NCBI GenBank assembly: GCA_025462735.1
Contig: JAOAPC010000008.1
Location: 186,001-250,000 of the forward strand
Reading direction: 5' to 3'
DNA from: Acidobacteriaceae bacterium
GTDB lineage: Bacteria; Acidobacteriota; Terriglobia; Terriglobales; Acidobacteriaceae
DNA length: 64,000 nucleotides
Shown here: positions 967 to 20,322 of the stretch, piece by piece
Layout: every line of letters begins with the position of its first letter
How positions within the stretch are numbered: position 1 is the first letter of the stretch
The notes under the pieces: generated by a model
Told to the model about the DNA's origin: nothing
Databases searched by the model: none
What the model saw: the letters and a program-made list of their open reading frames with translations, nothing else
Position numbers and translations under genes: made by a program

Positions 967-1024
967 CCAATTGGGAATCATTACCTTCTGGGGCAAGACA
1001 ACTTTCAACCTGAGGAGAAACACT

Positions 1025-1600
1025 ATGCGCAATAAGAAACTACTGCTGGGAGCTTTCGTTGTGCTCTGTTGTTCTGGATTCGCGTTCAGTCAAATGCCCA
1101 CGCCACCACCCGCAAAGACTCCGGGAGACGCACTCAATGCGGTTTTGAACATTGCCGAGCATGAATTCGTCTCTGCAGCAGACGCCATGCCGGAAGACAA
1201 GTATTCGTTCGCTCCCAGCGCGGGCGAGTTCAAAGGTGTTCGTACCTTCGCGGAGCAAGTGAAACACGTGGCTGCGATCAACTACATATTTGGCGCCAGC
1301 GTTTTGCAGGAAAAACCGCCGGTCGATACGGGCGAGGAAAAAGGACCAGCCACGGTCAAGAGTAAGGCTGAAATCATGAAGTTCCTGAATGACTCTTTCG
1401 CATATTTGCACAAGGCCCTGGCTTCGATAAGCGACAAAAATGAATTAGACCAGGTAACCGTATTTGGTGAGATGAAAATGGCTCGCCTCAGCGTGGGTTC
1501 GTTCTCGGTTGCCCATCCCATGGACCATTACGGGCAGATGGTCGAATATCTCCGGATGAATGGAATCGTGCCGCCGGCCAGCCGTCCACAGAGCAAGTAG
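1025..1600 (+). CDS. Secreted DinB-family protein
   Basis: Protein of 191 residues with a cleavable signal peptide (MRNKKLLLGAFVV... ending near FAFSQ, about residues 1-23) followed by a four-helix DinB fold. The putative metal ligands of the family are visible: a histidine in the second helix (EQVKHVAA) and an HxxxH pair near the C-terminus (AHPMDHYGQ). DinB-like proteins are often thiol- or metal-dependent enzymes of unknown substrate; a periplasmic location is unusual for the best studied members but common among predicted acidobacterial ones. An in-frame start lies 54 bases upstream, but the ATG at 1025 is preceded by GAGGAG at good spacing and exposes the signal peptide, so it is preferred. 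Function beyond the fold is unknown. Confidence 0.85.
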   Translation: MRNKKLLLGAFVVLCCSGFAFSQMPTPPPAKTPGDALNAVLNIAEHEFVSAADAMPEDKYSFAPSAGEFKGVRTFAEQVKHVAAINYIFGASVLQEKPPVDTGEEKGPATVKSKAEIMKFLNDSFAYLHKALASISDKNELDQVTVFGEMKMARLSVGSFSVAHPMDHYGQMVEYLRMNGIVPPASRPQSK

Positions 1601-1607
1601 GAATCTG

Positions 1608-1683
1608 CCACGGATTGCGCGGACTATCACGGAGTGAAGCTGAATCCTAATTAAAATCCGCGAAAATCTGTGCAAATCCGTGG
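1608..1683. repeat. Palindromic intergenic repeat (CCACGGATT family)
   Basis: A 76-base element bounded by a perfect 9-base inverted repeat, CCACGGATT at 1608-1616 and AATCCGTGG at 1675-1683, with internal remnants of the same words (GCGCGG, AAAATCCGCG). This resembles the interspersed repeats scattered in acidobacterial genomes. It lies just after the DinB-like gene and could fold as a hairpin in its transcript. Confidence 0.6.
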
Positions 1684-2101
1684 CTGGTGCGTGATTCGTC
1701 CGAAGGCAACCTTAGTACCATCTTTTTCGCCCACCCCCCTTGCGAAGTTGCCCGATTTTGCCTAGCATCCCAAATGAAAGCCGACCTGCAAGGTTGGTGA
1801 TGGCGGTAACCGATTTTTGAACCAATGCTTGAATGAACGGGGCCTGACTCGTATTTGATCTGGTGTGCCATGCTCCGCCATGCGGAGAGGCCTAAAGGAT
1901 CTCGGAGGGCCCCAAACGTCTACCGACGGTTCATTCTCGGCCCGTCACACGGTCAAGTGGGTCGGTTTTTTTCTCTATACCTGCGAAACCGAGCATCGTC
2001 TCCCAGCACTGCTCGGAAATCCGTAAATAGAATAAAATCAGATCAGATGCGCGGATACCTTGCGAACGACTTTCGCGTTGTGCTCTGCATCTAATTAATC
2101 A
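1684..2101. other. Intergenic stretch without a credible gene
   Basis: About 420 bases between the repeat and lgt. The only open frames here are short and lack ribosome-binding sites and a protein-like composition. A small perfect hairpin, CTCCGC-CAT-GCGGAG, lies near 1872-1886. No convincing promoter for lgt was recognised. Confidence 0.5.
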
Positions 2102-2905
2102 GTGTTTCCCAGACTCTTCCAAATCGGCAATTTCGGCATACCCACCTATGGTGTCCTAGTCGCGTTAGGCGTACTTCTCGGCCTTTGGATCAGCGTCCGC
2201 AACTCCGCCAAGCAAGGAATCAAGCGTGAGAATGCGTGGGATTTTGGTATCGCGGTTGTACTTGCGGGAATCGTAGGCTCGAAGCTTCTCTACCTTTTAG
2301 TCGACTGGCATTTCTATCTTGACCATCCCGGAGAAATCTTCAGCTTCGCCACCTTGCAAGCTGGGGGCATCTTTTCTGGCGGCCTGATTGGAGCGTTTGC
2401 TGTCGCCGCCTGGTATCTACGCAAGCACCAGATGCCGGCACTGGCCACGTGCGACGCGTTTGCGCCCGGTCTCGCAATTGGGCACTCAATTGGACGACTC
2501 GGTTGCTTTGCGGCAGGATGCTGCTATGGAAAAGCGACAGACCACTTCTGGGGCGTGACATTTACCAATCCGCTCGCGCAACAACTCGTCGGAACTCCAT
2601 TGGGGCATGCCCTTGAACCCACGCAGTTGTTCGAGTCCGCTGTGGAATTGAGCATCTTCTTTCTTCTCACCTGGATGTTTAAGCGCAAGAAATTCGACGG
2701 CCAGATTTTTGGGGCATACCTTTTCCTTTACGGAGTCGCCCGCTTCTTCCTTGAGTTTCTGCGGGATGATCCCGGCCGCGGCTCCGTGTTCGGAGGCGTC
2801 ATGACCGGAACCCAACTCATCGCAATCTGCCTCGTGCTCACCGGCGGGCTTATCTGGTATCTTCGGCCCGCACCGAAAGTCGTTTTAGCAACGGCCACGC
2901 GCTAG
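2102..2905 (+). CDS. lgt: Prolipoprotein diacylglyceryl transferase
   Basis: Inner-membrane enzyme that moves diacylglycerol from phosphatidylglycerol onto the lipobox cysteine of prolipoproteins, the first step of lipoprotein maturation. 267 residues, seven or so membrane helices. The N-terminal sequence MFPRLFQIGNFGIPTYGVL and the central signature HSIGRLGCFAAGCCYG match the family; the classical form of the signature is GRxGNFxNxE, and the GCFxAGCCYG variant occurs in many non-proteobacterial homologues. The C-terminal RFFLEFLRDDPGRG motif is also typical. GTG start at 2102. It stands alone, followed by an intergenic repeat. Confidence 0.9.
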   Translation: MFPRLFQIGNFGIPTYGVLVALGVLLGLWISVRNSAKQGIKRENAWDFGIAVVLAGIVGSKLLYLLVDWHFYLDHPGEIFSFATLQAGGIFSGGLIGAFAVAAWYLRKHQMPALATCDAFAPGLAIGHSIGRLGCFAAGCCYGKATDHFWGVTFTNPLAQQLVGTPLGHALEPTQLFESAVELSIFFLLTWMFKRKKFDGQIFGAYLFLYGVARFFLEFLRDDPGRGSVFGGVMTGTQLIAICLVLTGGLIWYLRPAPKVVLATATR

Positions 2906-2931
2906 GGCAACTTTCACTCCTTATCCAAAAT

Positions 2932-3129
2932 TGTCATCCTGAGCAAAGCAAGTGCTTTTGCTCGCGAGAGCATTTTAGATCCGCACCAACGCTTCCTGGA
3001 GTTCTCACACGTAATCCAGCTTCGGCGCGGTTGTAGAAATTCCCATCGAGGTTCTTCCTTGTGCGAAGATCAAAGGGGTTCTTCGACTCGGGGCCGGCAC
3101 AAAGCCGGCCCGCTTCGCTCAGAATGACA
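2932..3129. repeat. Palindrome-bounded intergenic repeat upstream of rluD
   Basis: The segment starts TGTCATCCTGAGC (2932-2944) and ends GCTCAGAATGACA (3117-3129), a 12 of 13 inverted match. The interior holds short palindromes (GGCCGGC, TTTGCTCGC/GCGAGAGCA). This is the arrangement of the common acidobacterial interspersed repeats. Its right end contains the ATG used as the probable start of the next gene. Confidence 0.65.
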
Positions 3130-4131
3130 GCGAATAATTTCATTGTGGAAACGAAAACACTCACCGTCGACTCGGAACACTCCGGTCGCCGGCTGGATCA
3201 CTTCCTAGTCTCGCAACTTCCTGACAACAGCCGCTCGTGGATCCAGCAACTCATCTCGCAGAAAAAAGTGCTGGTGGATGGAAAGCCAGCCAAAGCTTCG
3301 CTGCCTCTGCGCGGTGGAGAGCGCATTGAAATTGTCGGTGAGGTTGAACGTCCGCCACTGCGGGCTATTGCGGAAGAGATTCCACTGGATGTTATCTACG
3401 AAGATGATGATCTCGCCGTCGTTAACAAGCCGGCTGGAATGATGGTTCACGCAGGCGCCGGAGGGACGGACGAGGAACGAAACCGCGGAACTTTAGTCAA
3501 CGCTCTGCTGCACAGGTTCGGTGCGCTATCCGGCGTAGGGGGCGAACTGCGCCCCGGAATTGTTCATCGCCTGGACAAAGACACCAGCGGCCTGATTGTG
3601 GTCGCAAAAAATGACACTGCGCATCGGAAGCTGGGAGCTGAGTTTTCCGGGCGAAGGGTAAAGAAAACTTACATCGCCCTCGTCCACGGCTGGCTTAAGG
3701 ATGATCATGGCACAATTTCCAGCCCAATCAGCCGTGATGCCATTCGTCGTATCCGCATGACCACCCGCAGAAGCGGTGGCCGTGAGGCCGTCACGAAGTA
3801 TGTTGTTGAGCGACGAATTCAGTCCGAATTCGGCAAGTTCACGCTGGTCAAAGTCAAAATCGAAACCGGCCGCACCCATCAGATTCGCGTCCACATGGCT
3901 TCGCTCGGCCACCCGGTGGCAGGGGACGCACTCTACGGCGCGCCACGTGAGATCCGCGCCAAATCCGGGGCGGTAATTTCCCTGCCCCGAAATTTTCTCC
4001 ACTCCGCCGAACTTCAGTTCGAGCATCCGCACAGCGGAGAGCTACTGAGCTTTTCGTCTCCTATTCCAGAACCTCTCGTAGAATTTTTGCGCGATTTGGA
4101 GCTGAATCGCGCCATGGAGAAGCGGCTATAA
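3124..4131 (+). CDS. rluD: Large-subunit rRNA pseudouridine synthase, RluD type
   Basis: Isomerises uridines in 23S rRNA to pseudouridine. From the ATG at 3124 it has 335 residues: an S4 RNA-binding domain (about 18-80: GRRLDHFLVSQ, QKKVLVDGKPAK) followed by the RluA/C/D catalytic domain with the signature HRLDKDTSGL, whose aspartate (about residue 151) is the catalytic residue, and the C-terminal GRTHQIRVHMA motif. The open frame extends upstream to 3061, but that extension is simply translated repeat DNA and should not be included. A GTG at 3145 is another possible start; neither has a strong ribosome-binding site. Confidence 0.9.
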   Translation: MTANNFIVETKTLTVDSEHSGRRLDHFLVSQLPDNSRSWIQQLISQKKVLVDGKPAKASLPLRGGERIEIVGEVERPPLRAIAEEIPLDVIYEDDDLAVVNKPAGMMVHAGAGGTDEERNRGTLVNALLHRFGALSGVGGELRPGIVHRLDKDTSGLIVVAKNDTAHRKLGAEFSGRRVKKTYIALVHGWLKDDHGTISSPISRDAIRRIRMTTRRSGGREAVTKYVVERRIQSEFGKFTLVKVKIETGRTHQIRVHMASLGHPVAGDALYGAPREIRAKSGAVISLPRNFLHSAELQFEHPHSGELLSFSSPIPEPLVEFLRDLELNRAMEKRL

Positions 4132-4141
4132 TGAGGTTCTC

Positions 4142-5275
4142 ATGCATCGGTTCCGGCCCACTCGCCTTGTCCTCACTGCGGCGTTTTTGAGCGTTTCTCT
4201 CTTTGTCTTTGCTCAGACCTCCGCACAGAACTCGGCTCAAACTGCGGACGAGCTGCCCTCAGCACCTTCAGCCGTGGTGCAGCAAAAGCCAGCACCGCAA
4301 AAAGCCGCTGCAGCCCCACCAACCGAGGAGCAGCCGGCTCAGACTCAGCCAACCGATCCGGCACAGCAGGGTTCCGACCCGACCGCAGGTAACAGCGATA
4401 CCCCTTCGGATGAGCCTTCAAAGACTCAAGGCGATTCGACCTTCGTCAAAACCGTCAATGAGGTTCCAGTTGTCTTCACAGTCACGGACAAACACAACCA
4501 CTATGTGCGTGATCTCAGTAAGAATGATTTCAAGGTAATGGACGACGGCAGGCCTGTCGTCGACGTTCGCAGCTTCCGTCGCGAGACCGATCTACCCTTG
4601 CGGGTCGCGCTTCTGATCGACTCCAGCGCTTCGGTTCGCGGCCGCTTCAAGTTCGAACAAGAAGCCGCGATCGAGTTCATGAACCAAACCATCCGCCCCA
4701 AATACGACCAGGCATTCGTAATGGGCTTCGATTCCACTCTTGAGGTTACGCAGGAGTTCACCGGCGATACCGAGCTGCTCTCGAAAGGCATCCGCAGCTT
4801 GCGTCCCGGAAATAGTACCCGGCTCTACGATGCCATCTTCTACGCCTGCCGCGAACGGCTGCTGAATACGCCGGAAACGATCTCGGTGCGCAAAGCCATA
4901 GTTCTGATAACTGACGGAGAAGACAATTCCAGCCGTTCGACCCGGGAAGAAGCCATTGACATGGCGCTGCGGGCGAATGTGATTGTTTATACGATCAGTA
5001 CCAATTTCCCTGGATATTCAGAAAGCAGCAAGTATGACAAGATCCTGCAGCGCATTGCGGACGCCACTGGCGGGCGTTGGTTTGAGCCGTTTCAGGTGAC
5101 CGACGTTGCCAACGCCTTTGCTCAGATACAGGCCGATCTACGCAGTCAATATGCGCTGGCATACCGCCCCGCCGACTTTAAGCATGATGGCCGATATCGC
5201 ACGATCGAAATCTTAGCTGAGCATAAAGGTTTGAAGGTTCACAGCCGGCACGGGTATTACGCTCCGACGGAGTAA
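4142..5275 (+). CDS. Secreted VWFA-domain protein, acidobacterial type
   Basis: Exported protein of 377 residues. A signal peptide (residues 1-24, ending FVFAQ) is followed by a low-complexity linker rich in Ala, Pro, Gln, Ser and Thr (about 25-105), a short beta domain of the kind that precedes the VWFA module (VFTVTDKHNHYVRDLSKNDF), and a von Willebrand A domain with a complete MIDAS start, LLIDSSASV (DxSxS). The order matches the VWFA-related family first described from Acidobacteria, which is expanded in that phylum. Likely adhesive or scaffolding; partner unknown. Starts 10 bases after rluD and is probably co-transcribed. Confidence 0.88.
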   Translation: MHRFRPTRLVLTAAFLSVSLFVFAQTSAQNSAQTADELPSAPSAVVQQKPAPQKAAAAPPTEEQPAQTQPTDPAQQGSDPTAGNSDTPSDEPSKTQGDSTFVKTVNEVPVVFTVTDKHNHYVRDLSKNDFKVMDDGRPVVDVRSFRRETDLPLRVALLIDSSASVRGRFKFEQEAAIEFMNQTIRPKYDQAFVMGFDSTLEVTQEFTGDTELLSKGIRSLRPGNSTRLYDAIFYACRERLLNTPETISVRKAIVLITDGEDNSSRSTREEAIDMALRANVIVYTISTNFPGYSESSKYDKILQRIADATGGRWFEPFQVTDVANAFAQIQADLRSQYALAYRPADFKHDGRYRTIEILAEHKGLKVHSRHGYYAPTE

Positions 5276-5427
5276 ATACGTCGTGGTTCGTTGGCCATTG
5301 GCCGAACAGATTCGCGACAAGCGCGAGCTAAAAATCAAACCCGGTGCCCAAATCCCGGTTTTCGCGAACGACCGACGACGAACGACCAATGACGATTTTC
5401 CAAATGAACTATTTCGAAAGGTAAAAA

Positions 5428-6702
5428 GTGAGCCCAACCGAAACCACACCCAGTACTAAACGCGAGATAGAAGTTGAAATTCCTCAAGAGGAGGTATCGC
5501 GTGAGACTGAGGTGCTGATCCAGAAATATCAAAAGCTGGCGCGCATCCCGGGTTTTCGCCGCGGCCATGTGCCCGCCTCCATCATTCGCCAGCGTTTTTC
5601 ACAAGACATTCAGAATGACGTAATCGACGCGCTGGTGCCCAAATACTTCCGCAAGGAAACCGAACGTCTGGGCGTAGTTCCAATCTCCCAGCCTCGCGTG
5701 ACTGAGTTGCAGAGCCCCGAAGGCAAGCCATTGCACTTTAAGGCCAGCTTCGAGGTCATGCCTGAGATCAAGGTCGAAGGCTACAAAGAACTTCGCGCCG
5801 ACCACCCTGAAATTTCTGTGTCCAACGAGGAAGTTGAGGAATCGCTCAAGAGCTTACAGGAGCAGAAGGCAACCTTCTCTCCGATTGAAGGTCGGGCCAT
5901 TGCCGAGGGCGACTACGCCCAAGTTTCGCTTGACGGCACCCCTAAGAAGGAAGAGGAAGGAACCAAGCCCGTCCACATGGATGACGTGCTGGTCGAAATC
6001 GGCGGCAAGGCCACAATGCCGGAATTTACCGAGAACCTGCGGGGAGCCAGCGCTGGCGAAGAACGTACGTTTGATGTTCTTTATCCTGAGGATTTTTCTG
6101 ACGAGCGGCTTCGGGGCAAGACCTTCAGCTACAAAGTCAAAGTGAATGCGATCAAGCAGAAAAGCTTACCCGAGCTGAATGACGATTTCGCCAAGGAAAT
6201 CGGTGAATTTTCCACGTTAGAAGAAGTTCGACAACGTATTCGCGAAGGCATGGAGAACGAACGCCGTCAAACGGCAGAGCGCGAGGCCAAAGACAAATTG
6301 CTGACGGAACTCATCCGGCGCAACGAATTCGAGATTCCAGAAGCACTGGTCGAGCATCAAATCGATATACGCCTAGAACGTGGCCTTCGCGCCCTTGCAG
6401 CCCAGGGGATGAGCTCCGAACACATGAAAAAAATGGACCTGGCTCGCCTTCGTGCTGGCCAGCGTGACCAGGCTGTTCAGGAGGTCAAGGCTGCTTTGCT
6501 GCTGGAAAAGATCGCCGAAGAAGAAAAAATTGAGGTCGGCGACGAGGAAATTAGCCACGAGATTGAGGCATTGGCCACGCAGACAAATCAGGCGCCGGAT
6601 GCGATTCGCGCACGTTTGACACGTGATGGAGCGCTCGATAGAATCCGGAACAGGATCCGCAACGAAAAGGCCCTCGATTTACTGTATCGTCAATCTGCTT
6701 AG
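5428..6702 (+). CDS. tig: Trigger factor (ribosome-associated chaperone)
   Basis: Chaperone that binds the ribosomal exit tunnel and shields nascent chains. 424 residues, normal for the family: N-terminal ribosome-binding domain with the signature PGFRRGHVP (the GFRxGxxP motif, about residues 38-46), a central FKBP-type peptidyl-prolyl isomerase domain (about 150-240) and a long helical C-terminal chaperone domain. GTG start at 5428 with GAAAGG just upstream. Heads a conserved proteostasis run tig-clpP-clpX-lon, the usual bacterial order. Confidence 0.96.
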   Translation: MSPTETTPSTKREIEVEIPQEEVSRETEVLIQKYQKLARIPGFRRGHVPASIIRQRFSQDIQNDVIDALVPKYFRKETERLGVVPISQPRVTELQSPEGKPLHFKASFEVMPEIKVEGYKELRADHPEISVSNEEVEESLKSLQEQKATFSPIEGRAIAEGDYAQVSLDGTPKKEEEGTKPVHMDDVLVEIGGKATMPEFTENLRGASAGEERTFDVLYPEDFSDERLRGKTFSYKVKVNAIKQKSLPELNDDFAKEIGEFSTLEEVRQRIREGMENERRQTAEREAKDKLLTELIRRNEFEIPEALVEHQIDIRLERGLRALAAQGMSSEHMKKMDLARLRAGQRDQAVQEVKAALLLEKIAEEEKIEVGDEEISHEIEALATQTNQAPDAIRARLTRDGALDRIRNRIRNEKALDLLYRQSA

Positions 6703-6757
6703 GCAGAGCGCTTCCAATCCCCCCATCATCCGGAATTTCCGGGCAGGAGTGTGAGAA

Positions 6758-7366
6758 GTGAGTGAGAAAGACGCACGCATGATGCTGGTCCCCATGGTTA
6801 TCGAACAAACCGGCCGGGGTGAGCGGGCCTATGACATTTACTCGCGCCTGCTGCGCGACAATATTATTTTTATCGGGACGCCGATCGACGACAACGTCGC
6901 CAATCTGGTAATCGCGCAGATGCTGTTCCTGGCACAGGAAGACCCCGAGAAGGACATTCAGCTCTATATAAATTCTCCCGGTGGGTCGATTACTTCGGGT
7001 ATGGCAATTTACGACACGATGCAGTACGTGAAGAACGACGTGACTACAATATGCATTGGACAGGCGGCCAGCATGGCGGCCACTCTGCTCGCAGCGGGAG
7101 AACCAAAGAAGAGGTTGGCGTTGCCTAATTCAAGAATTTTAATCCACCAACCGCACATGGGCGGGCTGTCAGGACAGGCGACCGATATTGACATTCATGC
7201 GCGCGAAATCCTGAGGATGCGTGACATTACGAATCAATTGCTCTCTAAACACACCGGGCAAAAGCTCGAAAAAGTAGAAAAAGACGTCGAGCGCGATTTC
7301 ATTATGAATGCCCAGCAGGCCAAGGAGTACGGAATCATTGACGATATCATCTACAAGACCAGATAG
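6758..7366 (+). CDS. clpP: ATP-dependent Clp protease, proteolytic subunit
   Basis: Serine peptidase that forms the tetradecameric degradation chamber docked by ClpX. 202 residues. The catalytic serine is in GQAASMAA (about residue 105), the histidine in [10 protein letters not shown] (about 130), spaced 25 residues apart as in Escherichia coli ClpP, and the acidic residue lies in the KDVERDF region near 176-180. The N-terminal [19 protein letters not shown] is standard. GTG start at 6758 after GGAGTGTGAGAA. 55 bases downstream of tig and 110 upstream of clpX. Confidence 0.97.
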
Positions 7367-7373
7367 GTTGTAT

Positions 7374-7392
7374 GATCGGCCTTTCGCCGATC
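7374..7392 (+). other. Hairpin between clpP and clpX
   Basis: Perfect 7-base stem GATCGGC / GCCGATC with a CTTTC loop starting seven bases after the clpP stop. There is no run of T after it, so it is not a classical terminator. It may be a processing or stabilising element setting the relative level of clpP and clpX. Confidence 0.4.
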
Positions 7393-7476
7393 AACTTCCC
7401 GGGGCAAGAGATCTGGCGGGTGGGATAGCAGAGAAAACAAGGCGGCCAGAAATGGCACCTAAAGGAGTGGGGCTGA

Positions 7477-8751
7477 GTGAAAAACAAGACCGGAACTGAA
7501 GAAATTCTTCGCTGCTCGTTCTGCCATAAGTCGCAGGACGCGGTCGCCAAGCTGATCTCCTCTCCGAGCGACTACCCGCGGGCGTACATTTGCGACGAGT
7601 GTGTTGCAGTCTGCAATTCCATTCTGGAAGATGACCGCGCAGCCACTCCGGCGGCAACAACTCCGAACCAACTCCCCAAGCCGGCTGAGGTCAAGACTTT
7701 CCTCGATGAGTACGTGATTGGACAGGAACAAACCAAGAAGAAGCTCGCCGTCGCAGTTTACAACCACTACAAGCGTATCTACATGAACCGGCAGCGTGCC
7801 GGGGACGGTATTGAGCTCACAAAATCGAACATCATGCTGATCGGTCCAACCGGGACTGGAAAGACTCTAATGGCGCAGACACTCGCGCGCATGCTCGACG
7901 TGCCCTTCGCCATCGTGGACGCGACTACTCTGACTGAGGCTGGATACGTCGGCGAAGACGTTGAGAACATTATTCTGAAGCTGCTTCAGGCAGCCGACGG
8001 CGATGTAGGCCGGGCACAAACTGGAATCATCTACATCGACGAAGTGGATAAGATCGGGCGCAAAGACGAGAATCCCTCCATCACCCGTGATGTGTCCGGT
8101 GAAGGTGTACAGCAAGCGCTTCTGAAGATATTGGAAGGGACGATCGCCAATGTTCCTCCCCAGGGTGGGCGCAAGCACCCACACCAGGAATTCACCCCTG
8201 TAGATACCACCAACATTCTCTTTATCTGTGGCGGCGCGTTCGTTGGCCTGGACAAGATCATTGGCCGGCGCGCTGGCCGGAAAGCCCTGGGCTTCAAGGC
8301 TGATGATGACCAGACGCAAGATGTAGTCCCAGATCGCAAGCGCAGTTTTGAGCTGTTAAACGAAATACAGCCAGAAGACCTGATCAAATTTGGACTAATT
8401 CCAGAGTTCGTAGGCCGTTTGCCTGTGGTGGGCGTATTGGAAGACCTCGACGAAGCTGCCCTCATGGAAATCCTCACTCGGCCCAAGAATGCGATCGTCA
8501 AACAGTACCAGCGTCTCTTCGAGTTCGAGAACGTACGCCTCAAGTTCAGCGAGGACGCTCTCCGCGCAGTTGCCCGGCAAGCCATGGTCCGGAAAGTCGG
8601 CGCCCGCGGTTTGCGCATGATTCTCGAAGAGCTCATGCTTGACCTCATGTATCACCTGCCAAGCCAAAAGAAAGTAAAAGAATTCGAAGTCACTCGCGAA
8701 ATGGTTGAAAAACGCAACGTTTCGCTTACTATGATGGAGAAGGCAGGGTAA
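7477..8751 (+). CDS. clpX: ClpX ATPase, substrate-unfolding subunit of ClpXP
   Basis: AAA+ unfoldase that recognises tagged substrates and threads them into ClpP. 424 residues. An N-terminal zinc-binding domain with four cysteines (CSFC... CDEC, residues 13-42) is followed by a Walker A motif GPTGTGKT (about 123-130), the ClpX signature [10 protein letters not shown], Walker [11 protein letters not shown] and the sensor-2 region GARGLR. GTG start at 7477 preceded by AAAGGAG. Normal length, no anomalies. Confidence 0.97.
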
Positions 8752-8857
8752 GAAGCTCGTTGGTTGTTTAGCTGTAGCTGCGGGCTTGAATCGCGCTCTG
8801 CTCAATAAAGGTTTAAGCTAGTAGCTGGAGCTAAACCCAAGTCGTTCGGGAGTTTTC

Positions 8858-11266
8858 GTGACCACACCCAAGGAAAAATTCGAGACCAGAAAGCTACCCA
8901 TGATGCCCATTCGGGACGTGGTCATCTTCCCTTACATGATGACGCCGTTCGTGGTGGGTCGTGAATCGAGTGTTCGCGCGCTGGAAGAAGCGCTGGCCTC
9001 GGACAAGAAGATATTTCTCGCCACTCAGCACGACGCCAGCGTCGATGAACCCAAGGCGAACGAGATTTATCAGATTGGTACTGTGGTCAACATCGTGCAG
9101 AGCCTCAAACTGCCCGATGGCAATATCAAGGTCCTGGTAGAAGGCATCGAACGCGCCAAGGTCCTCCAGATAATTGATACCGAAGGGTTCATGCAGGCGA
9201 CGGTCCGCCTCGCCCGTTATACAGTCGAAACCAACGCGCAACTCGAAGCTGCAATGCAGCGGGTCACTTCTCTATTTGAGCAATATGTGAAGCTCTGCCA
9301 ATCGCTCAACTACGAGACCATGATCGCGGCTGTGCGCATGGAAGATCCGGCCAAGCTAACCGATACTATTGCGGCGAACCTTCAGCTTTCGATTGAGGAA
9401 AAACAAGAACTGCTGGAAATTTTTGATCCTGCCGAGCGCCTCACCCGCATTGCGGATGTTCTCGATATCGAAATCGAAAAGCTGAACATGGACCGCACCA
9501 TCCAGTCGCGAGTGAAGCGGCAGATGGAACGGGCGCAAAAAGAGTACTACCTCAACGAAAAGATCAAGGCCATTCAGAAAGAGCTAGGGCGCGGCGAGAA
9601 GAGCGAATTCGATGAACTGAAGAAAAAAGTTGAAAAAGCAGGCATGCCGAAAGAGGTCCGCGAGAAGGCGTTGCAGGAACTCAAGAAGCTTGAGGCCATG
9701 CCGCCAATGTCAGCTGAGTCCACGGTCTCGCGCAACTACCTGGATTGGCTGCTCGCGGTTCCATGGAAAAAGCGCTCCAAAGAAATTCGCAATATATCGC
9801 GCGCTGAAAAGGTTCTGAACGAAGATCATTACGGGCTGGAAAAAATCAAGGAGCGAATCCTTGAATTTCTCGCGGTCCGTCAGCTGGTAAAAAACCCGAA
9901 AGGTTCGATTCTTTGCTTCGTTGGCCCTCCGGGTGTCGGCAAGACTTCGCTGGGAATGTCCATCGCCAAGGCCACGGGCCGCAAGTTTGTTCGCATGTCG
10001 CTGGGCGGGGTCCGCGATGAAGCCGAAATTCGTGGACATCGCCGAACTTACATTGGCGCGCTCCCCGGTCAGATCATTCAAATGATGAAGAAGGCGGGGA
10101 CCAAGAACCCGGTCTTCATGCTCGACGAAGTGGACAAAATGTCCATGGATTTTCGTGGCGATCCGTCCGCCGCACTGCTGGAAGTACTCGACCCCGAACA
10201 GAATTTCATGTTTGTCGACCACTATCTTGACGTTGAATACGACCTCTCACAGGTCTTCTTCGTAGCGACCGCCAATGTTCTGCACACCATTCCTCCTGCT
10301 CTTCAGGACCGCATGGAAGTTCTGCGGCTGCACGGTTACACCGAGGCCGAAAAGGTTGAAATCGCAAAACAGTTCCTGGTTAAGAAACAGATGGAGCAGG
10401 CCGGACTCAACGAGAAGAACATCAAGTTCACGGACGAAGCGATCACAACGTTGATTCGCAACTATACCCGGGAAGCTGGGGTCCGCAACCTCGAGCGTGA
10501 GATCGGCAATATCTGCCGCAAGATTGCGCGCAAAGTTGTTAAAGAAGGCGCGAACTACACAATAACAATCGCGGCCGAGACCGTGAATGATTTCCTTGGC
10601 GTGCTCAAGTTCCGCGACACGCTCGCCCATGAAAAGAGCGAGATCGGGTTGGTGACTGGATTGGCTTGGACTGAAGTCGGTGGCTCCATCCTGAGCACCG
10701 AGGCCAGCGTGGTTGATGGCAAAGGCAAGCTGACCCTTACGGGAAAGCTTGGAGACGTGATGCAGGAGTCCGCTCACGCGGCGATGTCCTACACTCGCTC
10801 CCGGGCACAACGACTGGGTTTGACTCGCGAGTTCTATCGCAATTTCGACATTCACGTGCACGTGCCAGAAGGCGCGATCCCAAAAGACGGCCCGTCCGCC
10901 GGTATCACCATCGCCACAGCAATCGCTAGCGCACTAAGTAAGATCCCCGTGCGTCGAGACATTGCCATGACCGGCGAAATTACGCTTCGAGGCAAAGTCC
11001 TTCCGATTGGCGGATTGAAAGAAAAGCTGCTGGCTGCGCACCGCGCCGGCCTTTTTGAGGTCATCCTTCCCAAGGACAATGAAAAAGACCTGGCAGAGGT
11101 TCCTGAAAATTTGCGCAGCGCCATGAAATTGCACTTTGTTGAGACCATGGACCAAGTGCTTACGCTGGCGCTGGAACACCCATTGCCCGAGACAGACATT
11201 CCGGTCGAAGGCTCCCAAACCATTCCTTTGAGTGGTCCTGCAGAAGGCCCCGCCGCGCACCAGTAG
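8858..11266 (+). CDS. lon: Lon ATP-dependent protease
   Basis: Hexameric AAA+ serine protease degrading misfolded and regulatory proteins. 802 residues: N-terminal substrate-binding LAN domain ([15 protein letters not shown], residues 14-28, through about 210), coiled-coil linker, AAA+ module with Walker A GPPGVGKT (about residue 356) and Walker [12 protein letters not shown], and the C-terminal protease domain with the catalytic serine in KDGPSAGI (about 678) and the lysine in [12 protein letters not shown] (about 720). GTG start at 8858. Last member of the quality-control run. Confidence 0.97.
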
Positions 11267-13675: not shown

Positions 13676-15289
13676 TCAGATCACCACTGTTTCCTGATAC
13701 TCCCCAAAAACAGCTCGCATGGCGTCTGAGATTTCTCCGACAGTCGCATACGCCTCAACCGCATCTACGATCTTTGGCATTAAATTCTCGCCGGAGCGTG
13801 CCGCGTTTTGAATCATCTCAATCTTTTTCTTCCACATCTTTTGATCTCGTTTTGCGCGCAATGCGCGCAGCCGCTCCACCTGTTTGCGCTCCAGTGACTC
13901 GTCGACGCGCTGAATCGGCACCTGGCCACTGCTTTCCTGCGTGAAGCGATTTACCCCAACCACCGTTGCTTCTCCGCTCTCCACCGACTTCTGCTGTTCG
14001 TATGCCGCGTTCTGAATTTCCTGCTGCACGAATCCGCGCTCGATAGCTTTCAACATGCCGCCCAAGGCCTCGATTTTCTGTAAATATTCGTTGGCGCGTT
14101 TTTCTATTTCATCGGTCAATGACTCAATAAAATATGAGCCTGCCAGCGGGTCGATGGTATTCGGAACGCCCGATTCGAAGGCGACAATCTGCTGCGTTCG
14201 TAGCGCGATCCGCGCCGCCTGCTCCGTCGGCAGAGACAGCGCTTCGTCGTAGGAATTGGTGTGCAGGGATTGCGTGCCCCCCAATACAGCCGCCATCGCC
14301 TGGATCGCGGTGCGCACAATGTTATTTTCAGGCTGCTGCGCGGTGAGCGTGGATCCGGCGGTTTGCGCATGGAAACGCAGCATCCATGAGCGCGGGTTTT
14401 TTGCACCAAGTTTCTCGCGCATGATTCGCGCCCACATGCGCCGGGCGGCGCGGAACTTGGCGACTTCCTCTAGAAAATTATTGTGAGCATTGAAGAAGAA
14501 AGATAGCCGTGGCGCGAAGACATCGACATCCAGTCCGGCGCGCAACGCGGCCTCAACGTATGCGCAGCCGTTGCCCAGCGTGAATGCAACTTCCTGGACC
14601 GCGGTCGCCCCGGCTTCACGTATGTGGTATCCAGAAATGGAGATTGTGTTCCACTCAGGCACATGCTGATTCGACCAGGCAAACAAATCTGTGACCAGCC
14701 GCATTGCATGGGAAATCGGGTAGATGTAGGTTCCGCGCGCAATGTACTCCTTCAGTACATCATTCTGTACGGTGCCGGAGAGCTTTCGGATATCTGCGCC
14801 CTTCTTGCGTGCGACCGCGACGTACAGCGCCAGAAGAATCGGGGCAGTCGCGTTAATGGTCATAGAAGTTGAAGTTTTCGTGAGATCAATTCCATCGAAA
14901 AGACGTTCAATGTCTTCGAGCGAGTCGATCGCCACGCCCACTTTGCCTACTTCACCCGCAGCCAGCGGATGGTCGGAATCGAGACCGATTTGCGTGGGAA
15001 GGTCAAATGCCACCGATAGCCCGGTCGTCCCGTGGCCCAAAAGGTATTTGTAGCGTTTGTTAGACTCCTCGGCATCGCCCATGCCCGCGTACTGGCGCAT
15101 GGTCCACAGCCGCCCGCGATACATCGTCGGCTGCACGCCGCGGGTATAGGGAAAATCACCGGGATAGCCGGCTTGTTCGTCGTAGTCCCAATTGTCCAGA
15201 TCAACCGGGGTATAAAGCTGGCGAACTGATATGTGGGACGAGGTTTCAGGATCTACGGAAGCGGCAGACGGTTTGGTCTTTTCAGGCAA
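13676..15289 (-). CDS. mutA: Methylmalonyl-CoA mutase large subunit (catalytic domain only)
   Basis: Coenzyme-B12-dependent enzyme interconverting methylmalonyl-CoA and succinyl-CoA. 537 residues covering the acyl-CoA-binding TIM barrel; the C-terminal cobalamin domain of the usual 700-plus-residue form is absent, so a separate small B12 subunit must exist outside the window. Signatures: [21 protein letters not shown] (Tyr67), [20 protein letters not shown] (Arg185) and [13 protein letters not shown]. Tyr and Arg, 118 residues apart, match Tyr89 and Arg207 of the Propionibacterium enzyme, the pair that binds the methylmalonyl carboxylate. This supports a true methylmalonyl-CoA mutase, in contrast to the paralogue at 60658. 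Confidence 0.9.
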
Positions 15290-15291
15290 GA

Positions 15292-15624
15292 TTATTTTCT
15301 TCGGCGCGCTCTGGAGAACGAGCTAAACCCAAACCAGGCAAACATCAGGGTGAATCCGGCGGCAGCAGCTACTCTCGATCCTGCGGCTTTGCCGGCATGA
15401 TAGGCCGCGTACTCCTTCAACCCTTCAACTAATCCGACTGCTGCAAATGCAACAAAAACAAAGCCCGTCACCTCCAACCAGAGCTGCCGCACAATTCCGG
15501 CGAAGTGCATAAAGGTTGTTCGCGCTCCGCTTAATACTGCGCCATAGGTACGGCTCCGCTTCACCTGCTGACCGGCAATCCGGGCAGCAATGCCGATCTT
15601 CCTGGATGTGGAGATGTTTGCCAT
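15292..15624 (-). CDS. Small membrane protein of unknown function
   Basis: About 110 residues from the ATG at 15624, which has GAGGAG a few bases upstream; the open frame continues further upstream but that start is better. The first 40 residues are basic ([20 protein letters not shown]), then two hydrophobic segments (about 48-66 and 84-101) and an Arg/Lys tail RARRRK. Looks like a small inner-membrane protein. It is immediately upstream of the mutase (2-base gap), so probably in the same operon, but I do not recognise a family. Confidence 0.65.
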
Positions 15625-15684
15625 TTGCTCCTCGATTTTACCAATCTCTGGGTTTAGAATAATTTTTGAGGAAGGTGCGAGCCT

Positions 15685-16029
15685 ATGCGAGCGACGCGGG
15701 CCGCATCCAAGAGATCGTCGTTCGCAAGACCGGGGGACTTCGTGGATCAGCAACTTAAGCATTTAATGAAGGAATTGGGCGAAGCAATCAATGAATCCCT
15801 CGCAGATTCTGAGCAGATTGCCGATGTCGTTTCCCGGATCAAAGATGGGGGCTACGACATTTTTCTCGTTCTCGAAGCCACAATCGGCGTAAGCCGCCCA
15901 GGCGAAAAGTCTCACGATAAGACCTCTATGGTGACAACTCTTTCCAGCAATCCTGAGCTTAAGGTCAGCGATCAGGACCTGAAATTCTTGAAGTCATTGC
16001 GGATCAAGATCGAAGACGACGCAGCCTAG
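15685..16029 (+). CDS. Conserved-looking small soluble protein, unknown function
   Basis: 114 residues from the ATG at 15685, which has GAGGAAGG upstream. The well-formed part starts at VDQQLKHLMKELGEAI, so a GTG at 15742 is an alternative start giving 95 residues. The sequence is helical and charged in the first half (two predicted amphipathic helices), then a beta-like stretch GYDIFLVLEATIGVSR and a C-terminal helix SDQDLKFLKSLRI. No family recognised. Divergent from the small membrane protein, with a 60-base shared upstream region. Confidence 0.65.
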   Translation: MRATRAASKRSSFARPGDFVDQQLKHLMKELGEAINESLADSEQIADVVSRIKDGGYDIFLVLEATIGVSRPGEKSHDKTSMVTTLSSNPELKVSDQDLKFLKSLRIKIEDDAA

Positions 16030-16128
16030 CTCCGCTCGCGACCCATTCCGGCAACTCTCACCATTTCATCTTTAGGGCAACGGCCGTACTTTGTACCTGA
16101 ATCCAATCCCCGTCCAGATCGGGGGACC

Positions 16129-17064
16129 ATGGCCGAATCTAACCTCACCACTACGGAGCAGGTATCCACAATCTGGAACCTCGGCGGCCTCACACTACGC
16201 CAGTTCGTGAAAAAAGTCATAGCTGGAATCGAAGAAGACAATTTGACCGGCCGCGCCGGCGAGTTGGCCTTCAATTTCGTTCTCGCCTTGTTTCCGTTGT
16301 TCATTTTCCTGCTGTCGCTTCTTGGGTTGTTTGCAGCCAGGGGCAGCGCACTTCGTGAGGGTCTGTTTAGATATGTTTACGAGGTCCTTCCTCCCGCCGC
16401 GGCCCAGGTGATCGGAGACACTCTTCGTGAAGTAATGCACAATGCCAGCGATGGCAAACTCACCTTTGGTATCGTGCTGACAATTTGGTTTGCCTCGGGC
16501 GGCATGAATTCTATGATGTCGGCCCTGAACGGAGTCTATGCAGTTAGAGAGAGGCGTTCCTGGTTGAAGGTCCGGGCGATTTCGTTTGTCCTGACCATCA
16601 CGATTTCGTTCCTCATAATCGCCGCGCTTGTGGTGGTTCTCTCCGGCGGCTATGTGGCCAACAGGGTGGGCAGCTACTACGGCCTCCAACATGCTGCGGT
16701 TGTCGCCTGGAAAGTTGGAGAGTCTTTGGTAGCCCTCACGTTCGTCACGCTTTCTTTTTCGCTGATTTACTATTTCGCGCCTGATCTGGAAGAGCAGCAC
16801 TGGTACTGGATCACGCCCGGCGCGGTGTTCGGCGTTTTGCTCTGGGTCGCCGCATCCTTCGCCTTCCGCGCCTATCTGCACTTCTTCAACACCTACAGCC
16901 GCACCTACGGATCGCTTGGCGCGGTCATGATCTTGCTAATGTGGCTTTACGTGACTGGGTTCGCTTTCCTGCTTGGCGGCGAGATTAACGCTCAAATCGA
17001 GCACGCCGCTGCCCGACGTGGGCATCCCGAGGCAAAGGCACCGGGAGAGAAAAAAGCCGCCTGA
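16129..17064 (+). CDS. YihY/BrkB-family inner-membrane protein
   Basis: 311 residues with six predicted membrane helices. Signatures of the family formerly called ribonuclease BN/BrkB: GRAGELAFNFVLALFPLFIF near the first helix, FASGGMNSMMSALNGVY in the middle, and RTYGSLGAVMILLMWLY followed by GGEINAQIE at the C-terminus. The family is widespread; its biochemical role is not established (it is not ribonuclease BN). ATG start at 16129. Downstream it runs straight into the first tRNA-Ala-like segment, so the gene marks the left chromosomal boundary of the small integrated region. Confidence 0.9.
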   Translation: MAESNLTTTEQVSTIWNLGGLTLRQFVKKVIAGIEEDNLTGRAGELAFNFVLALFPLFIFLLSLLGLFAARGSALREGLFRYVYEVLPPAAAQVIGDTLREVMHNASDGKLTFGIVLTIWFASGGMNSMMSALNGVYAVRERRSWLKVRAISFVLTITISFLIIAALVVVLSGGYVANRVGSYYGLQHAAVVAWKVGESLVALTFVTLSFSLIYYFAPDLEEQHWYWITPGAVFGVLLWVAASFAFRAYLHFFNTYSRTYGSLGAVMILLMWLYVTGFAFLLGGEINAQIEHAAARRGHPEAKAPGEKKAA

Positions 17065-17072
17065 ATAAGGGA

Positions 17073-17118
17073 TGGTGGACCTGGTCGGGATCGAACCGAC
17101 GACCTCTTTCACGCCATG
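17073..17118 (-). repeat. Partial tRNA-Ala 3' half (left attachment-site-like copy)
   Basis: Forty-six bases matching the 3' half of the intact tRNA-Ala at 20247 (CCA end, acceptor strand, T arm and part of the anticodon arm) with two mismatches. The first 36 bases are identical. After position 17118 similarity stops, so there is no D arm and no functional tRNA. Interpreted as an att site. Confidence 0.8.
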
Positions 17119-17198
17119 AATGAAGAGGTGAAAGTCAGCTTGGACTTGGTTCATTGCAAGCCTTAGCGAAGGTTGTCAGGTCCTTAATATCAGGAATA

Positions 17199-17789
17199 TC
17201 AGGAACGCCGGACATCTCGTTCGAGATATGCTTCGAGAAATGACCTGACGGAAAGCAATGCTTCGCGATCCTTTTCGATGCGGCTGATCATGAGTGCGCC
17301 CTCAAGCGAGGAAACGATGAGAGTCGCTACGTTTCCGGGGACGACCCTGGGCCTTATCTCTCTGGCCTTGATTCCGGCCTTAACAATCGACTCAAGCCGC
17401 CCCAGCCATTGGCGAAACGCGTTCCGAGCGCGATCGCGCAGAACTGGATTACCATCATCCGCGTCGACTGCCGTGTTCAAGATCGGGCAACCACCTGGAA
17501 CCGATGACCGACGCTCAACGAAGTTTGCTATGAACAACTTCAATTTATCTACACTATTAGGGAGACTATCCAAATCGCGGATTCGAGCTTCGGTGGCGAT
17601 CTTCAATGCGTAGTCGAACGCCTCGGCGGCGATTTCCTCCTTGCTGGAGAAATGCCGGTATATCCCGCCCTTCTCTAAACCTGTCGCTTCCATGAGAGCC
17701 GACATCGAGCCACCCTCGAAACCCTTCTGGTTGAATAGCCCTGCTGCTTCTGTCACGATTCGTTGCTTTGTATCGTCTCCTCTGGACAT
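17199..17789 (-). CDS. TetR-family transcriptional repressor
   Basis: 196 residues from the ATG at 17789 (the open frame extends upstream, but MSRGDDTKQRIVTEAA is the natural family start). N-terminal helix-turn-helix about residues 7-50: GLFNQKGFEGGSMSALMEATGLEKGGIYRHFSSKEE, shown here only as a description of helix 2, turn and recognition helix with the YRHF signature. The C-terminal ligand domain has FVERRSSVPGGCPILNTA, of the group that includes NemR/AcuR-like regulators of electrophile or aldehyde responses. It is divergent from the zinc alcohol dehydrogenase, and two palindromes lie between them, so it most likely represses that gene and itself. Confidence 0.88.
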   Translation of the reverse strand: MSRGDDTKQRIVTEAAGLFNQKGFEGGSMSALMEATGLEKGGIYRHFSSKEEIAAEAFDYALKIATEARIRDLDSLPNSVDKLKLFIANFVERRSSVPGGCPILNTAVDADDGNPVLRDRARNAFRQWLGRLESIVKAGIKAREIRPRVVPGNVATLIVSSLEGALMISRIEKDREALLSVRSFLEAYLERDVRRS

Positions 17790-17807
17790 AAGCTCGTTTC
17801 TCCGATA

Positions 17808-17867
17808 GAGACCATTCGGTCTCAGCCTCCAGCATAGCAGCTTTAATTTGCGACCGAACGGTCTCAC
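17808..17867. promoter_or_regulatory. Two palindromic TetR operators between regulator and dehydrogenase
   Basis: Site 1 (17808-17823) is GAGACC-ATTC-GGTCTC, a perfect 6-base inverted repeat. Site 2 (17851-17867) contains GACCG-AA-CGGTC. Both fit ACC-N4-GGTCTCA and are about 42 bases apart, close to four helical turns. Placed between divergent regulator and target, they are the expected operators. Confidence 0.65.
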
Positions 17868-17938
17868 AGGCAATCAAAGCATTCGAAGAGCAGGAGCACA
17901 TCTACTCACGCATCCGGCCCTCACAAAGGAGTTTTTGA

Positions 17939-18985
17939 ATGAAAGACACATACAAAGCAGTAGAAGTCTCAGCACCTGGCGAGCTTAGAGTAGTGGAACG
18001 GCAAGTATCTGAGCCTGGCGCTGGTCAGGTTCGAATCCGGGTGGAAGCATGCGGAATATGTCACACCGATGCCGCCACCGTCATGGGCATATATCCCGGG
18101 TTGACTCTGCCGCGTGTTCCTGGACACGAGGTGATTGGCCGCATTGAAGCGATCGGTAGCGGAGTGTCGAAGTGGAAAATCGGTCAACGGGTCGGTGTCG
18201 GCCTCATCGCGGGCGATGATGGGGTCTGTGAATCGTGCCGGCGCGGAGACGCCGTGAATTGTCAGAACCCCGTGGTCTCCGGAGTAACCGCGGATGGAGG
18301 ATACGCGGAGGTGATGATCGCTGAAGCCCGCGGCCTCGCTTCCATTCCTGACAAACTCACATCCGCAGAAGCCGCTCCTCTCCTCTGCGCGGGCGTCACT
18401 ACCTACAACGCTCTTCGCAACGCCGGCTTGCGCGGCGGAGATTTGGTAGCTGTTCAGGGCATTGGCGGCCTTGGGCATCTCGGTGTCCAGTTTGCGCGCC
18501 ACCTGGGTTTCCACACCGTCGCAATCGGAAAGGGACGCGACAAGGAAAAGCTTGCGAAAGACTTGGGCGCGCACGTCTATGTCGACACTGCTGTCGACGA
18601 TGCGGCCGTGGCGCTGCAGCGTATGGGCGGGGCCAGGGCGATTCTGGCAACCGCTCCCAGTGGCAGCGCTATGGGACCGCTGATGTCCGGTCTCGCGACA
18701 CGAGGCAAGCTGATCGTAGTGGGGGTTCCAAACGATGAAATCCGCCTGAATGCCTTCCCGCTCGTCTTTGGAGGACGCTCCGTTTACGGGTCACTCACCG
18801 GCACGCCGATTGATAGCGAGGACACCCTTGACTTCAGCGTGCTGGAGCACATCCGCCCGATGATCGAGACAGTGCCTCTCGAACAGGCTGCTGAGGGCTA
18901 CGCTCGCATGATGGAAGGTAAAGCGCGTTTTCGCATGGTACTGGTTACAAAGGATGGAGCTGCTCAAACGGCACCTGTAAACTGA
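17939..18985 (+). CDS. Zinc-dependent alcohol dehydrogenase (AdhP-like)
   Basis: Medium-chain dehydrogenase, 348 residues, oxidising alcohols or reducing aldehydes with NAD(P). Catalytic zinc site: CGICHTD (Cys and adjacent residues about 38-44) and GHEVIG (His about 63). Rossmann motif VQGIGGLGHLGVQFA (about 175-189). In the lobe that normally binds a structural zinc through four cysteines (CxxCxxCx7C), the first position is Asp (DGVCESC...NC), so only three cysteines remain. The TetR regulator reads divergently from 150 bases upstream. Likely an inducible aldehyde or alcohol detoxification enzyme carried as cargo; substrate unknown. Confidence 0.88.
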   Translation: MKDTYKAVEVSAPGELRVVERQVSEPGAGQVRIRVEACGICHTDAATVMGIYPGLTLPRVPGHEVIGRIEAIGSGVSKWKIGQRVGVGLIAGDDGVCESCRRGDAVNCQNPVVSGVTADGGYAEVMIAEARGLASIPDKLTSAEAAPLLCAGVTTYNALRNAGLRGGDLVAVQGIGGLGHLGVQFARHLGFHTVAIGKGRDKEKLAKDLGAHVYVDTAVDDAAVALQRMGGARAILATAPSGSAMGPLMSGLATRGKLIVVGVPNDEIRLNAFPLVFGGRSVYGSLTGTPIDSEDTLDFSVLEHIRPMIETVPLEQAAEGYARMMEGKARFRMVLVTKDGAAQTAPVN

Positions 18986-19046
18986 ACCATTTGGAGTGTT
19001 TGTGAGAACTTGTCCCCGAACTGGGGACTCGGACGTAGTTCAGAAA

Positions 19047-19091
19047 TGGTGGACCTGATCGGGATCGAACCGACGACCTCTTCCATGCCAT
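19047..19091 (-). repeat. Partial tRNA-Ala 3' half (internal attachment-site-like copy)
   Basis: Forty-five bases matching the 3' half of the intact tRNA-Ala at 20247 with one mismatch (A for G in the acceptor/T-arm junction). Similarity extends through the anticodon-arm word CCATGCCAT and then stops. Divides the integrated region in two. Confidence 0.8.
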
Positions 19092-19427
19092 TTCTCATCT
19101 TGAAGTGGAGTAGAAGAATACAGACAAACCGCAGGTGATACTAAGGGGCAGTGTTCCTGCCCTTTTCGCGGCGAGTCTCTGACACCTGTCCTTTCCCGAG
19201 TAACACTATCCGAGACATCCAGACCCGAATGGGATGGCGGGGTTGCGACACAAAATGCGACACAATGTTTGGAGTCCTACGAATGGCCGCCCCCGTGGGG
19301 AATCCCCCGCCTCCTCGAAAATACGCGGGTAGTGGCAACGCAAGGCGCATCCACGTGCGCCGAAGGTCGCCCGAACAACTGAAACAATGGCCCGGTGTAG
19401 AAACTCACAATATGTAAGAATTGACGC
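19092..19427. other. Intergenic stretch with a possible integrase-tail trace
   Basis: No convincing gene. At 19237-19254 the word GGCGGGGTTGCGACACAA matches 17 of 18 bases of a stretch at 20188-20205, just beyond the integrase stump. Read in one frame it gives GCDTKCDTM, reminiscent of the short Tyr/Asp-Thr-Asn/Lys tails that end some tyrosine recombinases. Evidence is thin. Confidence 0.35.
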
Positions 19428-20072
19428 ATGCAGTTCATCAGTGAGGACGATCTCCAGACTTTCGAGGGTTGGGCTACGTATCAGTGCCTTGACCTAAGTT
19501 CACCAGAAGAACTGGAAACGTGGCGTGGCGTGTTCGATGAGATGCGGCAGCGCAGCTCTGGCAGCCCTAAGGTCGGGCTGATGAAGCTTAAGCCAACGCC
19601 CGGTGAATACAGATATGCTGTGGCTGTTCGTGATGCTGGTTTGTGGTTAGCGTTGTGGGTTCGGCGTTCACCGAAGGGTGAATTCTTCGTTCTAAAACCG
19701 AGTGCGGGCGGGTCGGATGTTCACGCGAGTTATCACCTCGACGGCACCCTTCACTTGAAGAGCGATGGCGGCAAGGCCCTTCGCCCAGAGAAACGTCAAC
19801 CCTTGACTGGCGTATTCCATGGATCGGAGACCCTTATAACTTTTGCTGGATACGGGCCGAAAAGAGTCGGCGCGATTTGTGATCCAACGGCGTTCTCCGA
19901 GGTTGTCGAAATTCCGCACGGTATTCTGGGACCACGCGACGGTCAGATCACGGTAGATTTGGTCGAGCCAAATTGTGAACCAGCAGCTTTCCCTTGGACA
20001 CAGATCGCCTGCCGCAAAGTCTTCCGTGACGTTGTGCCGTGGGTCGTAGTAACAGTAGGCTCATGCGGTTAG
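19428..20072 (+). CDS. Hypothetical protein carried in the integrated region
   Basis: 214 residues, soluble, no signal peptide and no membrane segment. The composition is normal and the frame is open without unusual codons, so it is probably a real gene. The sequence alternates short beta-like stretches (YRYAVAVRDAGLWLALWVRR, FFVLKPSAGG, ASYHLDGTLHLKS) suggesting a mostly beta fold. I do not recognise a family. It occupies the second interval of the tRNA-Ala scar and its stop codon lies only six bases before the integrase stump, in the same reading frame. Function unknown. Confidence 0.6.
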   Translation: MQFISEDDLQTFEGWATYQCLDLSSPEELETWRGVFDEMRQRSSGSPKVGLMKLKPTPGEYRYAVAVRDAGLWLALWVRRSPKGEFFVLKPSAGGSDVHASYHLDGTLHLKSDGGKALRPEKRQPLTGVFHGSETLITFAGYGPKRVGAICDPTAFSEVVEIPHGILGPRDGQITVDLVEPNCEPAAFPWTQIACRKVFRDVVPWVVVTVGSCG

Positions 20073-20078
20073 TTAATC

Positions 20079-20240
20079 ATGGCAATTGCCGGACACCTAA
20101 GCCGTTGCATGTTGGAACGGTACAGCCACGTACGGATGGAAGCGGAGCGAACAGCGATGGAAGCCCTTGCTGTGAGCACCAAACCGGCGGGGTTACGACA
20201 CAAACACCGTCGTTACCGTTCGTCCCGTCTAAGTTGCTAT
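20079..20240 (+). pseudogene. C-terminal stump of a tyrosine recombinase (integrase)
   Basis: The first 30 residues read MAIAGHLSRCMLERYSHVR then MEAERTAMEAL. This is the end of a tyrosine recombinase catalytic domain: GH is the last His of the active-site set and the Tyr of ERYSH the nucleophile. Everything upstream (Arg and Lys boxes, arm- and core-binding domains) is missing, and the tail after about 20175 seems out of frame. The stump points at the intact tRNA 70 bases away, the usual position of an integrase gene relative to its attR tRNA. Non-functional. Confidence 0.75.
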
Positions 20241-20246
20241 GAGAAT

Positions 20247-20322
20247 TGGTGGACCTGGTCGGGATCGAACCGACGACCTCTTCCATGCCATGGAAGCGCG
20301 CTCCCAGCTGCGCCACAGGCCC
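20247..20322 (-). tRNA. tRNA-Ala (GGC)
   Basis: Seventy-six bases on the minus strand with the CCA encoded. The acceptor stem GGGCCTG pairs with CAGGTCC (one G-T pair). The anticodon stem is CTTCC / GGAAG around the loop ATGGCAT, giving anticodon GGC. T arm GTCGG-TTCGATC-CCGAC is standard. It is the intact target of the two att-like copies at 17073 and 19047. Confidence 0.95.

Follow-up and report, generated by a model that had tools for sequence, protein, structure and literature searches.

A probable tandem pair of decayed integrative islands at a tRNA-Ala(GGC) gene of an Acidobacteriaceae bacterium

Tandem accretion of mobile elements has been described for streptococcal arrays of ICEs and IMEs, where integration is followed by decay to an att-flanked CIME without integration and transfer genes, and then by integration of a neighbour (PMC5704250, citing Pavlovic 2004). 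Among the 3919 islands of the Islander survey, 2083 have att sites centred on the anticodon, and 125 tandem arrays were recorded (PMC4383910). Our search of the literature on mobile elements of the phylum Acidobacteriota found no specific report.

The locus described here lies in a window of 64,000 nucleotides from an Acidobacteriaceae bacterium (G000:C11:186001-250000; contig JAOAPC010000008.1 of assembly GCA_025462735.1), which was compared with a set of genomes that includes seven relatives of the same genus. Very probably, two decayed integrative islands stand in tandem here at a single tRNA-Ala(GGC) gene (Table 1); so read, the region is a clear example, backed by genome comparison, of islands accreting and decaying in tandem in a phylum whose mobile elements have received little published attention. 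Two displaced tRNA halves delimit an outer interval and an inner interval, and each interval has att sequences on both sides and no integrase or transfer genes. This recalls the streptococcal CIMEs, as does the tandem placement at one tRNA after a later integration. However, the host is an acidobacterium, and mobilisation by a related island is only putative here. Derivation by deletion from an integrase-bearing island is apparent for the inner interval only, the outer one having no trace of it. The complete relative that was scanned has no recognisable conjugation gene, and the ancestor may not have been an ICE. As it may have been neither conjugative nor mobilisable, the scar is called CIME-like, rather than a CIME in the strict sense.

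Table 1. Features of the locus, in window coordinates
Feature	Position	Strand	Remarks
att copy 3, displaced 3' half of tRNA-Ala(GGC)	17073-17118	minus	46 nt, 2 mismatches; distal boundary of outer interval
TetR-family regulator	17199-17783	minus	Pfam TetR_N, TetR_C_13
Zinc-dependent alcohol dehydrogenase	17939-18985	plus	Pfam ADH_N, ADH_zinc_N
att copy 2, displaced 3' half of tRNA-Ala(GGC)	19047-19091	minus	45 nt, 1 mismatch
att copy 2 plus distal island arm	19047-19318		71% over 275 aligned columns to distal end of G034 island, E 6e-26
Two GACACAA direct repeats, distal arm	19247-19265 (starts 19247, 19259)		12 bp apart; presumed arm-type integrase sites
214-aa ORF of unknown family	19428-20072	plus	Between the two retained island ends
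3' end of tyrosine integrase gene	20075-20232	plus	Matches residues 332-375 of the 387-aa G034 integrase, 80% identical
Single remaining GACACAA, proximal arm	20197-20203		Intact relatives have two
Intact tRNA-Ala, anticodon GGC	20247-20322	minus	ARAGORN; presumed regenerated integration target

A 45-nt probe from the tRNA matches one strand of the window at 17073-17117 (2 mismatches), 19047-19091 (1) and 20247-20291 (0), whereas 100 dinucleotide-preserving shuffles contained zero copies. Together with the ARAGORN call, this bears out the initial annotation, which had described two partial halves (46 and 45 nt, two and one mismatches) in the same orientation as the intact gene. In the tRNA sense, each copy covers the sequence from the first bases of the anticodon loop (ATGGCAT or ATGGCGT) through to the very 3' terminus of the tRNA, with its CCA. 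In copy 2 the one mismatch disrupts a pair of the T stem, which fits a piece freed from selection. Selection on the tRNA has ceased to act on displaced halves, and the differing mismatches and unequal spacing previously advanced in favour of two separate integrations are for this reason weak arguments.

The inner interval (19047-20247) is where the comparative evidence is most direct. Against the complete island of genome G034, the window gives two aligned blocks, one at each island end. The left block is 272 nt long, and after att copy 2 it contains 227 nt of arm in common with G034; the right 248 nt (20075-20322) align to the integrase/tRNA end at 81% (E 2e-70). Between 19318 and 20075 there is no alignment to the G034 island. 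As both ends align and the middle does not, the inner interval is a collapsed island, its interior deleted or replaced, and it is directly shown to be the scar of a tyrosine-integrase island. The integrase remnant, IMAIAGHLSRCMLERYSHVRMEAERTAMEALAVST, matches the G034 integrase from residue 332 on, with ~45 codons left. It retains the catalytic Tyr, has lost the other catalytic boxes, and is frame-shifted ahead of the old stop codon. This remnant, which adjoins the tRNA directly, had not been spotted in the initial annotation. We call the interval a scar and not an island because the integrase is reduced to a 3' fragment.

Like Islander-type islands, the window has an intact tRNA gene and, on its 3' side, a displaced 3' fragment in the right order and orientation, with an anticodon crossover, and the ends of the inner interval are homologous to those of an island. 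Unlike them, it has no integrase gene within the inner interval, which is also shorter than Islander's 2-kb limit, so that the Islander algorithm would reject it for want of an integrase ORF and for its size. Very short, integrase-free scars of this kind, dropped by standard island finders, are thus recognisable through their arms. The 214-aa ORF ends 3 nt ahead of the integrase block and may have arrived as cargo. Of 300 genomes of the bacterial family, three contain such an ORF, the window's among them, and in the other two it does not lie beside tRNA-Ala. It has no match in Pfam, PHROGs, NCBIfam or plasmid sequences, and its predicted structure (pLDDT 36, built from two sequences) gives no usable fold.

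The suggestion that full-length elements should be sought at the same tRNA proved productive. G034 has a complete 15.6-kb island between an intact tRNA-Ala and an exact 45-bp copy, G247 has a complete 8.4-kb island at tRNA-Ala(GGC) with a window-type integrase, and a further complete island occurs in G215. These three islands share the tRNA-Ala(GGC) target, the integrase 3' end and GACACAA repeats with the window, and the distal arm is shared by G034 and G247. They differ in retaining whole integrases (386-398 aa), whereas the window keeps two ends only. The window's remnant matches integrases that lie beside tRNA-Ala in G034, G006, G018, G215 and G247. In G247 (L241:3-595 and 551-9068, on G247:C346), the C-terminus of an integrase of another type is followed by an att copy, the 8.4-kb island and the intact tRNA, which is a tandem array of the kind proposed for the window.

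Window-type integrases form a family with tRNA-Ala(GGC) as its main target, and the ends of its islands are mapped here. On GTDB contigs, 6 of 10 loci of the family directly adjoin a tRNA-Ala(GGC) att site, one more reaches a contig edge within such a site, and two (L260 and L262) adjoin a different tRNA, identified by ARAGORN in L262 as tRNA-Val(GAC). The named records are mostly MAGs labelled Acidobacteriaceae, Terriglobia or Candidatus Sulfotelmatobacter. The anticodon-stem region of this different tRNA resembles that of tRNA-Ala(GGC), and a change of target is possible. The G247 island also encodes an AAA_25 ATPase, an HTH_17 protein and a Sel1-repeat protein. A Pfam scan of nine proteins from the 8.4-kb island and its neighbour found no relaxase and no T4SS, and neither the G247 island nor the G034 island, the proteins of the latter judged by eye, has a recognisable phage structural gene. 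Among IMG/VR viral contigs, the integrase has matches of just 25-34% identity.

The complete G034 and G247 islands have a GACACAA pair, its members 12 bp apart, once near each end, and GACACAA occurs nowhere else on the same strand of either. The proximal pair sits in the last codons of the integrase gene, where it encodes GYDTNHDTN. Across eight integrase genes, synonymous differences in the nine repeat codons amount to 3.6% of same-residue codon comparisons, versus 40% in the twenty upstream codons, which points to constraint on these codons at the DNA level. Most simply, the repeats are putative arm-type sites bound by the integrase. The window keeps two distal copies and one proximal copy, and loss of the other proximal copy, a net 11 nt, accounts for the frame shift in the integrase. 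The repeat GGCGGGGTTGCGACACAAA at 19236 and 20186 was considered as the tail of a second integrase and rejected, as the comparison with G034 identified paired arm repeats.

Of the 37 family genomes in the first sample, 11 have a displaced tRNA-Ala half (G000, G002, G003, G006, G013, G016, G018, G022, G026, G028 and G034), as do more of those examined later. Nearly all of these halves extend from the tRNA 3' terminus for 45-56 nt, as far as the anticodon loop or stem, and the two window copies fall in that range; such sites belong to the anticodon-centred class of Islander. In G022, G025, G026 and G038, intact integrase genes of other types finish beside tRNA-Ala. tRNA-Ala(GGC) is therefore a hot spot in the family.

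Could slippage or unequal crossing-over, with no integration involved, nevertheless have produced the partial copies in the window as degenerate duplicates of the tRNA? Direct copies of 24 and 34 nt, 75-145 bp from the tRNA, do exist in L226 and L155, although they fall short of the anticodon, while copy boundaries cluster at the anticodon in many genomes and complete integrase islands lie between such copies. The initial annotation had named degenerate tRNAs unrelated to integration as the finding that would overturn it, and for copy 2 the alignment of the adjoining sequence with the G034 arm already refutes this. We consider such duplication extremely improbable. The original reading as an attachment-site scar was right: the ends of the inner interval align to both ends of a complete island, and the boundary is that seen in many relatives' islands.

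The outer interval likewise has one att copy on each side. Its gene content had been described correctly as a TetR regulator and a dehydrogenase, with an unrecognised gene in the second interval, apart from the overlooked integrase 3' end. The TetR gene is missing from all seven same-genus genomes and is sporadic in the family (41 of 200 genomes), and the dehydrogenase has same-genus matches of 53-59% identity, with its closest relative (75-89%) in another genus. On this basis, and mainly on that of the att copy, the outer interval is likely to represent a second integration, and probably an earlier one. Of the two separate integrations suggested initially, the inner is demonstrated, and the outer is likely, given att copies and genus-absent cargo with neither an integrase nor a known arm.

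Alternatively, only one real integration may have occurred: the outer att copy would then stem from a chromosomal rearrangement or a composite, TetR and the dehydrogenase would be ordinary chromosome, and there would have been no outer island. There is indeed no integrase trace between 17073 and 19047. A DNA search of 300 family genomes and the collected loci with the outer arm (17118-17260) returned nothing beyond the tRNA half, and the inner end of the interval (18960-19046) has no relative in the family genomes searched or the collected loci. TetR and the dehydrogenase were traced in G137, G103 and G021 for a complete outer island, revealing no att site and no conserved pairing. The TetR relatives examined adjoin neither a dehydrogenase of the window type nor an att site, which we count against two islands. 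Gene order around the left edge also varies among relatives, and yihY is an unusual neighbour. However, copy 3 has the same limits, tRNA 3' end and anticodon loop, as the halves displaced by many islands at this tRNA, and the genus relatives have neither the TetR gene nor a close relative of the dehydrogenase. We regard a single integration as unlikely, if clearly less so than duplication without integration.

The two flanks differ in their conservation. On the right, the tRNA, a protein at 20491, an ECF sigma factor and an anti-sigma factor are conserved family-wide. On the left, att copy 3 begins 8 nt past the yihY stop codon, at the end of a methylmalonyl-CoA mutase-yihY block (13676-17064). 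In G005 and G006, yihY is followed by ilvD, which in the window's genome follows ilvC and ilvB, ~130 kb to the right. The tRNA neighbourhood of G002 and G003 has a TIM-barrel isomerase, the counterpart of which is on another contig in the window's genome. The left edge of the scar thus coincides with a break in gene order. Since ilvD is so distant and yihY is not beside tRNA-Ala in relatives, a rearrangement or assembly error is possible there.

The comparison with empty sites that had been proposed gave no relative with yihY beside tRNA-Ala, so there is no exact empty site for the left edge, but near-empty and occupied loci sharing a flank, the Lhr helicase, were found in other genera. The tRNA is 0.6 kb from Lhr in G105 and 1.8 kb in G032, with no anticodon-length copy, whereas in G018 a displaced half and 5.3 kb precede the tRNA, and in G013 a displaced half lies on the Lhr side. 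As G105 and G032 contain tRNA-end copies of 24 and 30 nt near the tRNA, they are near-empty and not perfect empty sites.

Taking two integrations as the preferred reading, we infer the following history. Islands of this type encode a tyrosine integrase whose gene finishes beside the tRNA. By recombining in the anticodon loop (7-bp ATGGCAT), such an island supplies the host 5' half with its own tRNA 3' half, which keeps the tRNA functional, and displaces the old 3' half to its far end. New islands enter at the intact tRNA, as the known mechanism implies, so the outer island (17073-19047) should be the older and was most likely the first arrival. The inner island, of the G034/G247/G215 integrase family, would later have integrated at the regenerated tRNA and then lost nearly everything between its 272-nt distal arm and the last integrase codons, leaving the 214-aa ORF. 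The outer island presumably brought in the TetR/alcohol dehydrogenase pair as cargo, kept it, and lost its integrase. Neither remnant would now be able to move alone.

The locus is a well-preserved but ordinary case of island pile-up and decay at a favoured site; what it usefully adds is a set of complete relatives, a hot spot, and arm repeats that lie within the integrase gene. We would only tentatively go further, and propose that this hot spot is previously unreported, that several integrase types share it and stack there, and that the near-invariance of one type's arm repeats inside its integrase gene might let a newcomer mobilise scars that have lost their enzyme.

Three other kinds of locus at tRNA-Ala deserve mention. 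Copies of 24-34 nt of the tRNA 3' end, ending short of the anticodon, lie 66-145 bp from the intact tRNA-Ala in L155, L226 and L148, and may have a different origin. G022 has an apparent ~107-kb island (G022:C24:53926-161526; L174/L149) that extends from a displaced half to the intact tRNA-Ala gene, next to which lies an integrase of another type. A further short scar, at L237:17210-18794 (G138:C10), spans the 1.5 kb between a displaced half of 56 nt and the intact tRNA-Ala.
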